Of a stretch of DNA of 64,000 nucleotides, positions 4,692 through 10,932 are shown in pieces (position 1 is the stretch's first letter; each line of letters begins with the position of its first letter). The position numbers and the translations under genes are program-made. The notes beneath the pieces are model-generated. The model did not search any database. It saw nothing but the letters and a program-made list of their open reading frames with translations, and was not told where the DNA came from. Source of the stretch: Negativicutes bacterium (GTDB taxonomy: Bacteria; Bacillota_C; Negativicutes; Sporomusales_B; JARLHX01); NCBI GenBank assembly GCA_031292035.1, contig JARLHX010000274.1:30105-94104 (forward strand), given 5' to 3'.

Positions 4692-4717
4692 TTTGACAAA
4701 ACTATCATTATAAAAAG
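4692..4717. other. attL: core TTTGAC plus inverted arm
   Basis: The chromosomal side is spoVK codons for Lys-Ala-Met; the core is TTTGAC (4692-4697); the element side is the arm AAAACTATCATTATAAAAAG. The arm doubles as the T-tract of the aminotransferase terminator on the minus strand. Confidence 0.8.
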
Positions 4718-4750
4718 CAGGCCCAGCGGTAAGCCGCAGAGCCTGCTTTT
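4711..4750 (-). terminator. Terminator after the aminotransferase, at the left end of the element
   Basis: On the minus strand AAAAGCAGGC pairs with GCCTGCTTTTT, with an inner GCGG/CCGC stem and a short loop. It stops element transcription from entering the 3' half of spoVK. Confidence 0.85.
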
Positions 4751-4810
4751 CGTTATTAATATAATATTAAAACAAAATTGGTATTTATTTCCAGGAAATT
4801 GGATTTTGTG

Positions 4811-5983
4811 TTATGCTTTAAGCTTGTTTAACCGTTCAACAGCAGCCTGCAAGGTGGAAAACTCTTTGCAGAAGCAGAATCGAATCAGCTTCTTGCCGTC
4901 CGGACTGCCGTCGCAGTAAAAGCTGGATCCAGGAACTACCGCGACTCCGATCTCCTTGGTGAGATGCAGGGCAAATTCAACGTCATCTTTCCAGCCAAAT
5001 GGAGTGATGTCAGCCATTATATAGTAGGCTCCACTTGGTTTAAAACATTTGAAGCCAACAGAGACCAATGCGTCGTACAGGAAATCGCGGCGTTCTCCGT
5101 AAAAGGCAGAAAGCTCATCATAGTATTCAGGATTGAAGCGGAGTGCTTTAGCAGCTGCTTCTTGCAGGGGCGCCGCAGCTCCTACGGTAAGAAAATCATG
5201 GACTTTACGAATGGAGTGCGAGAGTTCTGGTGAGGCAATAACATAACCGATCCGCCAACCGGTCACGCTATATGTTTTAGAAATCCCGTTGATGATTATG
5301 CTTCTGGCTTCCATGCCCGGAAGTTTCCAGATCGGGATGTGTTTTGCGTCGTCGTAAAGAATGTGTTCATATATTTCGTCAGTGATCGCCAGAACGTCAT
5401 ATTTAATGCACAACTCAGCAATAAAAGTGAGTTCTTCAAGGGAAAACACCTTGCCGGTAGGATTATGAGGGGTGTTGATGATAATGGCCCGCGTCCGATC
5501 ATTAAAAGCGGCAGCCAGTTCAGTACGATCAAGACTAAAATCAGGGGCGTGCAGTTTGACGTATTTGGGGGTGGCGCCGCAAAGAATGGTATCAGCCCCG
5601 TAGTTTTCGTAAAACGGTTCGAAAACAATCACTTCTTCTCCTGGATTTATCGTAGCCAGAAGTGTGGCGATCATGGCTTCCGTCGCGCCGCAGCAGACTG
5701 TCAGATTCAGCTCAGGGTCAAAAGTTACGCCGTAATCGCGCTCGAATTTCCAGACGATCGAATCCCGCAGTGATTTAGCGCCCCAGGTTATGGCGTACTG
5801 ATTGTGATCCTGCATAATGGCGTCAACGGCCGCCTGTTTAATCGCATCCGGCGCAGGGAAATCGGGAAATCCCTGAGCCAGGTTAATGGCTTTATGGGCG
5901 TCTGCCACTCTGCTCATCTCGCGAATGACCGATTCTGTGAAGCGGCGGGCTTTTTGTGATGCGTAGTTTCTAATGTTGTCCAT
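4811..5983 (-). CDS. Class I aminotransferase, probably methionine/2-oxo-4-methylthiobutanoate transaminase, element cargo
   Basis: A 390-aa fold-type I PLP aminotransferase of the I-gamma subgroup (kynurenine/methionine aminotransferase-like). Visible are NLAQGFPDFPAP near the N-terminus, NTPHNPTGKVF, ITDEIYEH and the PLP lysine in GISKTYSVTGWRIGY. I chose the ATG with AGGGG 7 nt upstream; an ATG five codons earlier has no ribosome binding site. A SAM-I riboswitch with terminator lies in its leader, which points to methionine or methylthio metabolism (for example the last step of methionine salvage) rather than general aspartate transamination. It is the last gene inside the spoVK element, so it would be lost from any cell line that excises the element. 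Confidence 0.88.
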   Translation of the reverse strand: MDNIRNYASQKARRFTESVIREMSRVADAHKAINLAQGFPDFPAPDAIKQAAVDAIMQDHNQYAITWGAKSLRDSIVWKFERDYGVTFDPELNLTVCCGATEAMIATLLATINPGEEVIVFEPFYENYGADTILCGATPKYVKLHAPDFSLDRTELAAAFNDRTRAIIINTPHNPTGKVFSLEELTFIAELCIKYDVLAITDEIYEHILYDDAKHIPIWKLPGMEARSIIINGISKTYSVTGWRIGYVIASPELSHSIRKVHDFLTVGAAAPLQEAAAKALRFNPEYYDELSAFYGERRDFLYDALVSVGFKCFKPSGAYYIMADITPFGWKDDVEFALHLTKEIGVAVVPGSSFYCDGSPDGKKLIRFCFCKEFSTLQAAVERLNKLKA

Positions 5984-9430: not shown

Positions 9431-9434
9431 TCTG

Positions 9435-10328
9435 ATGGAAACACGCAGCAACGCCGAAGTAAACAAGATGGCAACACCCGATATTGTGCTGCCGTCATCG
9501 ACAGATTTTATCGCGCTGGATTTTGAAACAGCCAATCGTGACCCGGCCAGCGCCTGCGCCATCGGTTTGGCCTTCGTCGAAAACGGACAAATTGTCGCCA
9601 ACCCGGGCTGGCTCATTCGGCCACCCCGCCTCTATTTTGATCCTGAATTTATCAAAATTCACGGCATTGACGCCGAACAAGTGCGGGCTGTTCCCGACTT
9701 CCATGAGTTGTGGCAATCCCTTGAACCGCATCTCAGAGGCCGAATCGTTATCGCGCACAACGCATCTTTTGACATCAATGTATTGTTAAATATGCTGGAC
9801 CATTACAAGCTTCCCTACCCTGCCTTCCGCTATTCATGCACTAAAGTCATTGCCCAAAAGACTTGGCCGACCTGGAAACGCTACAGTTTAGCCGAACTAG
9901 CCATTCGTCACAATATTGTTTTTCATCATCATGATGCCGCAGAAGATGCCAGGGCATGCGCGACCATTGCGCTAGCGGCCTTTGAGCAAAAAGCAGTCAG
10001 TTGCTTTGATGATCTGCACAGGCAAATTCGTCTCAACTATGGCGGGGTCTCGTCCGCCGGCCATGTTCCGCTTAGTACGACCATTCTGCTGCCTGACCTA
10101 GAAGCCTTTGGCGGCTGGGATACTCCTATCCACCGCAAGGATGAGCAGGTGAAACGGCGGCAACGAGCCGAAGGTCTATCCGACAGCAGTGTTGACCATG
10201 ATGCCAAATCAGGAGTCATCAACGGTTATGACGTTACCCTGGAGAAATGCAGCTGCGTCGATTTTCGGGAACGCCGATTGCCCTGTAAGCATATTTATTA
10301 CTTAGAGTCGAAATTAAGAAAAAAGTAA
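9435..10328 (+). CDS. DnaQ-family 3'-5' exonuclease with C-terminal SWIM zinc finger, element cargo
   Basis: A 297-aa protein. Residues ~24-190 form a DEDDh exonuclease: ALDFETAN (Asp and Glu of motif I), VIAHNASFD (motif II), and HHHDAAEDARA with the motif III His and Asp. A linker follows, then a C-terminal SWIM-like finger with the pattern C-S-C-x8-C-K-H (KCSCVDFRERRLPCKH). The single-domain arrangement resembles the epsilon-like exonucleases fused to other modules in Firmicutes; a DnaQ-SWIM fusion is uncommon to my knowledge. It is the last plus-strand gene before the right end of the element. Its stop codon lies within the 5' arm of the terminator. Confidence 0.88.
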   Translation: METRSNAEVNKMATPDIVLPSSTDFIALDFETANRDPASACAIGLAFVENGQIVANPGWLIRPPRLYFDPEFIKIHGIDAEQVRAVPDFHELWQSLEPHLRGRIVIAHNASFDINVLLNMLDHYKLPYPAFRYSCTKVIAQKTWPTWKRYSLAELAIRHNIVFHHHDAAEDARACATIALAAFEQKAVSCFDDLHRQIRLNYGGVSSAGHVPLSTTILLPDLEAFGGWDTPIHRKDEQVKRRQRAEGLSDSSVDHDAKSGVINGYDVTLEKCSCVDFRERRLPCKHIYYLESKLRKK

Positions 10329-10932
10329 GCAGCCAGTCAGTTATATGGCTGCTTACTTTTTTATATGATAGTTTCACCATACAATCAATCGCTTCTTTGC
10401 CAAAATCCTTTTCTCCCCCCCGGGCCAGTGAATAAGCTTCATCAATAAAGAGTATCCCGCCATAGGCTTTCTTTAGCTGTTCACGCGTTTTCTGGGCAGT
10501 GTGACCGATGTATTCCCCCACCAGATCGGCTCGTTCCACTTCGATCAAATGACCTCGGCTGAGTACTCCCATCTCACGAAAAACTTTGCCCATGATCCTG
10601 GCAACCGTCGTTTTTCCTGTACCGGGATTGCCTTTAAAAATCATATGCAGCACCAGGGGGTCGGTGATGAGCTGTTCCTTTTGCCGGTATTTCTGGATTT
10701 CTATAAAGGCATAGATCTCCCGTACCAGTTTTTTCACTTCACCCAGGCCAATCAAGTTATCAAGATCGCGCAGGATATCCTCCGCCCTTTGCCGGGATTT
10801 TGCCGGCTCGGGTCGCGAGGTATTTCCGCTGTGACCATATTCCATTTCACGAAGAAGCTTAAATGCCTCCACAGGAGTGATCTGACCGTTTTCCACAGCC
10901 GTCAGTACATCATTTGGCCAAAGATATGCCAC
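10234..10932 (-). CDS. spoVK: spoVK, 5' part (N-terminal half of the AAA+ ATPase), interrupted
   Basis: The N-terminal half of SpoVK: a short helical region, then Walker A GNPGTGKT, the conserved GHLIEVERADLVGEYIGHTAQKT in between, and Walker B ILFIDEAYSLARGGEKDFG. The native frame runs to Met-Val-Lys at the attR core (10372); beyond it lie ~45 foreign residues and a stop inside the element. I favour the GTG at 10932, which has GAGGTG 9 nt upstream and gives a reconstituted protein of 318 aa, close to the 322 aa of B. subtilis SpoVK; a TTG at 10986 is also open. A CATATATT box near 10970 resembles a sigma-E -10, with no convincing -35. Without sensor 1 and the arginine finger this half should be inactive. 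Confidence 0.9.
   Translation of the reverse strand: MAYLWPNDVLTAVENGQITPVEAFKLLREMEYGHSGNTSRPEPAKSRQRAEDILRDLDNLIGLGEVKKLVREIYAFIEIQKYRQKEQLITDPLVLHMIFKGNPGTGKTTVARIMGKVFREMGVLSRGHLIEVERADLVGEYIGHTAQKTREQLKKAYGGILFIDEAYSLARGGEKDFGKEAIDCMVKLSYKKVSSHITDWLLTFFLISTLSNKYAYRAIGVPENRRSCISPG
10325..10362 (+). terminator. Terminator after the exonuclease, at the right end of the element
   Basis: GTAAGCAGCCA pairs perfectly with TGGCTGCTTAC (11 bp), then TTTTTT. The T-tract is part of the terminal inverted arm, mirroring the arrangement at the left end. Confidence 0.9.
10353..10377. other. attR: inverted arm plus core TTTCAC
   Basis: The element side is TTACTTTTTTATATGATAG; the core TTTCAC is at 10372-10377; the chromosomal side continues in spoVK (Met-Val). 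The core differs from attL at one position, which is the wobble base of a Val codon after recombination, so either exchange point yields the same protein. Confidence 0.8.

Follow-up and report, generated by a model that had tools for sequence, protein, structure and literature searches.

The sporulation gene spoVK is interrupted by a 5,680-bp intervening element in a 64,000-nucleotide stretch of contig JARLHX010000274.1 from a Negativicutes bacterium (GCA_031292035.1), hereafter the window. This element is very probably a counterpart of skin, the element that splits sigK, and its own large serine recombinase would excise it in the sporulating mother cell and thereby restore spoVK. A reading made earlier from the window's sequence alone (the sequence-only reading) had suggested a skin-like element in spoVK. 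That explanation is the best fit to the comparative tests, namely insertion at the same codon in 25 genomes, in-frame joins at 24 of 24 loci and open recombinase frames; it is further supported by purifying selection on both gene halves, the empty site of a closely related genome and the lack of a second spoVK in split relatives. The split, the dinucleotide GT at both borders, the in-frame restoration, the conservation, the selection and the empty site are read from sequence, and excision and its timing in sporulation are what we infer. In Bacillus subtilis, spoVK is expressed in the mother cell under sigma-E, and sporulation is severely impaired when it is deleted; the SpoVK chaperone activates MurG in the synthesis of the spore cortex, with Walker A, Walker B and the arginine finger each required (PMC10659427).

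The two halves of spoVK and the borders of the element

The gene halves, the element and its borders lie in the window as follows.

10376..10932, minus strand: 5′ half of spoVK with the N-terminal domain, Walker A and Walker B, starting at GTG 10932 and ending on the crossover GT; TIGR02881 positions 2-137, AAA (PF00004)
4296..4697, minus strand: 3′ half of spoVK with sensor 1 (GY), the arginine finger and the AAA lid; TIGR02881 positions 137-261, AAA_lid_6
4698..10377, no strand: intervening element, 5,680 bp, delimited by border comparison at 24 loci
10372..10377, no strand: attachment (att) core TTTCAC at the 5′-part border, crossover GT read as AC at 10376-10377
4692..4697, no strand: att core TTTGAC at the 3′-part border, crossover GT read as AC at 4696-4697
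10319..10362, no strand: hairpin inside the 5′-part border, terminator-like in both directions (A and T runs on its two sides); -23.3 kcal/mol, z -7.4
4712..4751, no strand: terminator-like hairpin inside the 3′-part border; -28.5 kcal/mol, z -5.6

The profile of the NCBIfam family TIGR02881 (spore_V_K) was covered by two abutting pieces, positions 2-137 and 137-261, with nothing lost between them. The split point fell between Walker B and sensor 1 of a single AAA+ domain; since Walker A and Walker B are in one half and the arginine finger is in the other, the halves would be useless apart. When joined, the two halves of the window read ...EAIDCMVK|AMEDHKDEL... in frame and without a stop, giving a restored SpoVK of about 318 amino acids (aa) counted from GTG; this start at 10932 and the motifs of both halves were picked by eye. 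The GT forms the first two bases of the valine codon at the joint (...DCMV|KAMEDHK...). Joining at GT likewise produced an in-frame, stop-free joint at 24 of 24 loci, comprising that of the window and those of the 23 genomes in which both halves were present. The sequence-only reading had placed two spoVK halves 5.68 kb apart on one strand and had predicted an uninterrupted frame of about 318 aa, conserved across the joint; the TIGR02881 pieces and the 5,680-bp unit confirm the former, and the count from GTG together with the 24 joins bears out the latter.

At the borders, a shared TTTSAC core had been proposed, which proved correct (4692-4697 and 10372-10377), and the comparison of 24 loci narrows the crossover to its inner GT. 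This GT (AC on the plus strand) was the common part of both borders every time, so that the unit measures 5,680 bp. Sites of large serine recombinases usually consist of a central dinucleotide between inverted half-sites. Correspondingly, the predicted attP, in which the ends of the element are joined, was an imperfect palindrome about the GT, with a mean of 12.5 of 20 matches compared with 3.8-7.2 at the other 80 offsets. The joined attP sequence of the window had no match in viral contigs. A natural, precise empty site was found in genome G302, where spoVK is unsplit: 177 of the 180 bases flanking the junction codon were identical to those of the split genome G301, and no scar was left.

According to one alternative explanation, the two halves are separate polypeptides that assemble into a working SpoVK while the DNA stays unchanged. 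An in-frame ATG does stand directly after the border in the 3′ part of the window. However, the bases ahead of this ATG are the att site, in which no ribosome-binding site was seen by eye, and a terminator-like hairpin precedes it. The split also cuts one AAA+ domain between Walker B and sensor 1, and separate polypeptides would leave both the recombinase and the GT at the two ends unexplained. We therefore give this explanation hardly any credence.

Distribution of the split gene and selection on its halves

The TIGR02881 profile was searched in 380 Negativicutes genomes and gave matches in 144, among which spoVK was intact in 22 and split at the same codon in 25. One further genome (G289), carrying spoVK in two overlapping frames, probably through a frameshift, was classed as neither split nor intact; the other 96 of the 144 matches were regarded, from their table entries, as longer or partial AAA proteins and left uncounted, four of them after a renewed search. 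Recurrence of the split at one codon in 25 of 380 genomes exceeds what chance would give. Both halves were present in 23 of the 25 split genomes, 20 of which had them on one contig in the expected order, while G301 and G319 had them on two contigs. G003, in which only the 5′ part was found, and G075, with only the 3′ part, were counted as split but not as joined.

The splitting of spoVK is thus not peculiar to one genome, and the same split occurs in the chromosome of Pelosinus fermentans JBW45, whose genome is titled complete. An assembly artefact could be suspected because some relatives are metagenome-assembled (L001, L002) and two have their halves on different contigs. The complete JBW45 chromosome refutes it there, and with 25 split genomes in all its probability is practically negligible. 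A second copy of spoVK was searched for in the 25 split genomes, and no further match at an expect value (E) of 1e-20 or below was found in any of them. For the species of the window, no intact near-identical SpoVK was among the best 120 listed matches to the joined protein (8,000 scored, 5.8 billion proteins), the best reaching 84%.

Both spoVK halves are under purifying selection as strong as that in intact genes. The median ratio of nonsynonymous to synonymous substitution rates (dN/dS) of the 5′ part was 0.034 for split genes (40 of 276 pairs measurable) and 0.037 for intact genes (27 of 231), and that of the 3′ part was 0.094 (47 of 276) and 0.125 (33 of 231), respectively; the measurable pairs are few because most pairs were saturated. 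These values bear on the explanation that the insertion is dead, a parasite having broken spoVK in lineages without sporulation or without a need for the gene, so that the halves are decaying. Candidatus Arthromitus lacks spoVK though it keeps sporulation genes listed as essential (PMC3533761), so spoVK is not needed everywhere. Nevertheless, dN/dS is as low as in intact genes, the joined gene is free of premature stops at 24 of 24 loci, the recombinase is conserved and open in all 26 copies, and the arrangement is common to clades with recombinases that differ from one another at roughly half of all positions. A dead insertion is accordingly very unlikely.

Recombinase, candidate directionality factor and proposed timing of excision

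The features that would drive and time excision, and the gene downstream of spoVK, are listed below.

6630..8162, plus strand: large serine recombinase, 510 aa, the predicted excision enzyme; PF00239 Resolvase, PF07508 Recombinase, PF13408 Zn_ribbon_recom
6289..6468, minus strand: 59-aa open reading frame (ORF) beside the 5′ end of the recombinase gene, candidate recombination directionality factor; motif kept in 18 of 26 elements
6488..6495, minus strand: CATATGAT box (CATAnnnT form), followed by a ribosome-binding site, ahead of the candidate factor
10969..10976, minus strand: -10-like box CATATATT upstream of spoVK, from 46 upstream regions compared by eye
3694..4299, minus strand: downstream GTPase gene (PF01926), overlapping the end of spoVK

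The large serine recombinase that the sequence-only reading had placed inside the element was confirmed by its Resolvase, Recombinase and Zn_ribbon_recom domains; in the window it is encoded on the strand opposite to spoVK. An open frame and the YxRVS motif were retained in 26 of 26 copies of the spoVK element, the window included, and dN/dS had a median of 0.099 and a maximum of 0.217 (64 measurable pairs). Recombinases with at least 49% identity were found in 26 of the 380 Negativicutes genomes, at most four candidates being scored per genome and two partial matches being set aside (G312:C35, 63%, 200 aa; G078:C103, 49%, 314 aa). Twenty-five of these were the split-spoVK genomes, each with the match on the element side of a spoVK half (25/25). 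In the 26th genome, G085, spoVK is intact, and the 49%-identical recombinase abuts an asparagine synthetase gene (L091, L114) that matches its profile only up to position 488 of 517 and is seemingly shortened; judging from this truncation, it is possibly another split gene. A 49%-identical relative of the spoVK-element recombinase is also encoded on the IMG/VR viral contig L111 (40.9 kb), where the best GT-centred palindrome scored 14 of 22 and none was higher. This viral relative makes a phage origin of the recombination unit plausible.

More distant recombinases were observed beside other genes. Those directly adjoining a gene that we take to be spoIIR, at L099, L104 and L105 in three genomes, were 41-44% identical, and recombinases lay just 3′ of a conserved 263-280-aa gene of unknown family at four loci (L103, L107, L109 and L110).

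The candidate directionality factor was detected in 18 of 26 elements by an iterated profile, with E-values of 2e-15 to 8e-8 against 4,096 ORFs, which are optimistic because the profile was built from the same rows. Its ORF was at most about 120 bp from the 5′ end of the recombinase gene in 18 of 18 cases; the two genes lie on opposite strands in the clade of the window and share one strand in the Sporomusa-like clade. A CATAnnnT box with a ribosome-binding site preceded it in 17 of the 18 (shuffled mean 0.22, maximum 3). In the JBW45 clade, a different small ORF was common to five of five complete elements.

Upstream of spoVK, the relatives carried G[CT][AG]TATAMT-like boxes with CACC further upstream (46 regions, by eye). 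Promoter scans used general sigma consensus patterns. A loose sigma-K pattern was present in 12 of 24 spoVK upstream regions (shuffled mean 2.0, maximum 6) and in 5 of 27 recombinase upstream regions, the latter being within chance (shuffled mean 1.95, maximum 6). The gene dpaA, intended as a yardstick for sigma-K, had no match at E 1e-40 in any of 23 genomes. Because no sigma factor could be assigned from the boxes, the timing in the mother cell is something we infer.

In the proposed mechanism, the recombinase would join the two GT-centred sites (attL x attR), so that the chromosome would regain a whole spoVK and the excised circle would bear a palindromic attP. The small protein encoded by the element at 6289-6468 would serve as the directionality factor that permits excision, and a sporulation promoter ahead of it may confine the event to the mother cell. 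As the mother cell dies, the spore would keep the split spoVK. The hairpins at both ends of the element are predicted to stop transcription from the spoVK promoter short of the 3′ part and of the overlapping GTPase gene, to which excision would also reconnect that promoter. The order hfq - spoVK - overlapping GTPase is the same in Pelosinus and relatives, and the GTPase gene adjoins the 3′ part in those relatives' loci that hold one; the names hfq and hflX, like spoIIR above and yabG below, are our presumptive assignments from the sequences.

Several observations weigh against developmentally controlled excision. Twenty-two genomes keep spoVK whole, and in G300 the halves lie 292 kb apart and inverted, so that site-specific recombination would there flip a large segment of the chromosome and not excise it, although a misassembly is possible. 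The predicted attP of G314 (9), G077 and G079 (10 of 30) is palindromic at about the background level. The candidate factor was marginal in G298 (E 0.005) and absent from the profile matches in all seven genomes of the JBW45 clade. A strict sigma-E pattern occurred in 0 of 24 spoVK upstream regions and was not enriched upstream of the recombinase (2 of 27; shuffled mean 0.6, maximum 3). The spoIIIAA gene of the same genomes, taken as a sigma-E yardstick, carries other boxes, with CATATCTATG in 13 of 17 loci (17 of 23 loci were taken in; the other 6, read in the wrong orientation, were left out). A SpoVK tree of 46 rows, whose bootstrap values had not settled, requires at least 11 changes of the split label, at least five of them on well-supported branches, so the element has been gained or lost repeatedly. 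Moreover, the SpoVK and recombinase distances of the Sporomusa-like clade (r = 0.24, with 572 of 5,000 permutations as high) are not clear of chance.

The explanation to be set against the preferred one is that the element excises without developmental control, like an integrative element or phage remnant, so that cultures always mix split and whole spoVK. The patchy gain and loss on the SpoVK tree, the weak distance correlation in the Sporomusa-like clade, the recombinase relative on viral contig L111, and the failure of the sigma patterns and the spoIIIAA comparison to yield a promoter type all agree with it. On the other side, the window sits in a clade of nine rows that are all split (9/9), and its recombinase and host gene have diverged together (r = 0.94 for nine genomes, with 0 of 5,000 permutations as high). 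One element is down to 2.97 kb yet retains the recombinase, and the candidate directionality factor is preceded by its own promoter-like box. Uncontrolled excision is on balance unlikely, and excision in the sporulating mother cell remains the preferred reading. In the JBW45 clade, the corresponding correlation was r = 0.85 (117 of 5,000 permutations as high). Taken by clade, these distance correlations indicate an old element that in some lineages has been passed on mostly by vertical descent and in others comes and goes.

Other late-sporulation genes may be split in the same genomes. The sigK gene was apparently split in 20 of 29 genomes checked, intact in 8 and not found in 1, as judged from partial profile matches, some of which contig ends could mimic; 18 of the 25 split-spoVK genomes were among the 20. 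In G307, a gene that is presumably yabG lies in two parts (L101:7642-8406 and 11361-11483) around another large serine recombinase, resembling the yin element. A wider proposal, which we hold only tentatively and regard as slightly less than an even bet, is that about half of the spore-forming Negativicutes found (25 of the 47 whose spoVK is split or intact) would rebuild several late-sporulation genes by DNA joining in the mother cell: spoVK in 25, sigK apparently in 18 of these 25 and yabG in one or more. A separate serine recombinase would probably serve each of these genes. In the clade of the window, the spoVK switch would then be fixed and timed by the small excision factor.

The remaining part of the element is occupied by cargo.

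4811..5998, minus strand: methionine-aminotransferase-like pyridoxal-phosphate enzyme; PF00155 and NCBIfam
6095..6195, minus strand: S-adenosylmethionine (SAM) riboswitch upstream of the aminotransferase; RF00162, 85.1 bits
8279..8425, plus strand: 48-aa zinc-ribbon protein, weak zinc-ribbon matches; in 6 of 9 elements of the window's clade
8663..9430, plus strand: predicted secreted protein without a family match; shared by all nine elements of the window's clade
9435..10328, plus strand: DnaQ-like 3′-5′ exonuclease (PF00929); likewise shared by all nine elements of that clade

The cargo turns over, while the recombinase, the borders and both gene halves are kept. Complete elements span 2.97-23 kb, the smallest being that of G305, which has shrunk to 2.97 kb. 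In tblastn searches of the relatives' loci, the exonuclease and the secreted protein were confined to the nine-member clade of the window, and the aminotransferase under a SAM riboswitch occurred only in the window's element among those examined. None of the four cargo ORFs of the window's element matched a phage family in the Pfam and NCBIfam scan, which covered this element. Elsewhere in the window, an ordinary lysine riboswitch (48212-48386, minus strand) lies upstream of a lysine/diaminopimelate-type gene cluster.

Relation to known sporulation-gene elements

If the proposed excision is real, spoVK joins the known targets of such rearrangements, and Negativicutes join Bacilli and Clostridia, the host classes given in PMC5595907. 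Should spoVK have to be reassembled in this way, a one-way DNA switch would control cortex synthesis in these bacteria. The series covers many genomes, among them split and unsplit sisters, with element sizes of 2.97 to 23 kb, and lets one ask why splits persist, whether by selfish maintenance or as a useful delay of the kind reported for the skin element of Clostridioides difficile (PMC5025042). Pelosinus fermentans JBW45 offers a named strain in which spoVK excision can be tested. The targets named in PMC5595907, PMC10747680 and PMC6957869 are sigK, spoVFB, spoVR, spsM, gerE, kamA and yabG. The sequence-only reading knew of no described case in spoVK, and among the papers listed from the open-access literature none is on an interrupted spoVK, subscription papers lying mostly outside that scope.

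The skin elements in sigK of B. subtilis and C. difficile are alike in that a mother-cell sporulation gene is split by an element with its own large serine recombinase, but the target gene differs and the spoVK element of the window carries no recognised phage gene. In C. difficile, expression of the skin recombinase is broad, and excision is limited to the mother cell by a small directionality factor that sigma-E and SpoIIID control (PMC5025042). With its recombinase and small candidate factor, the spoVK element resembles this arrangement, although the likeness of the candidate to the C. difficile protein CD1234 is one of layout and not of compared sequence. The gin element in gerE of Bacillus cereus ATCC10987 is likewise a non-prophage element splitting a sporulation gene, excised by the serine recombinase GirC with GirX (PMC5595907); however, it measures 28.6 kb and has three recombinases, whereas the spoVK element has 5.68 kb, one recombinase, another target gene and another host class. 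The yin element in yabG of Clostridium botulinum V73 is a sporulation-gene element with a recombinase and a predicted directionality factor, which is said in PMC10747680 to be unique to one strain, in contrast to the spoVK split common to 25 genomes. Further mobile elements that split sporulation genes are SPbeta (in spsM), phi3T (in kamA), vfbin (in spoVFB) and an element in spoVR, and for spsM and kamA reconstitution through excision during sporulation is described (PMC6957869). These differ from the spoVK element in their Bacillus hosts and target genes, and SPbeta and phi3T are whole prophages. The kind of element is therefore known, and the target gene, the host class and the depth of the many-genome series appear to be new.

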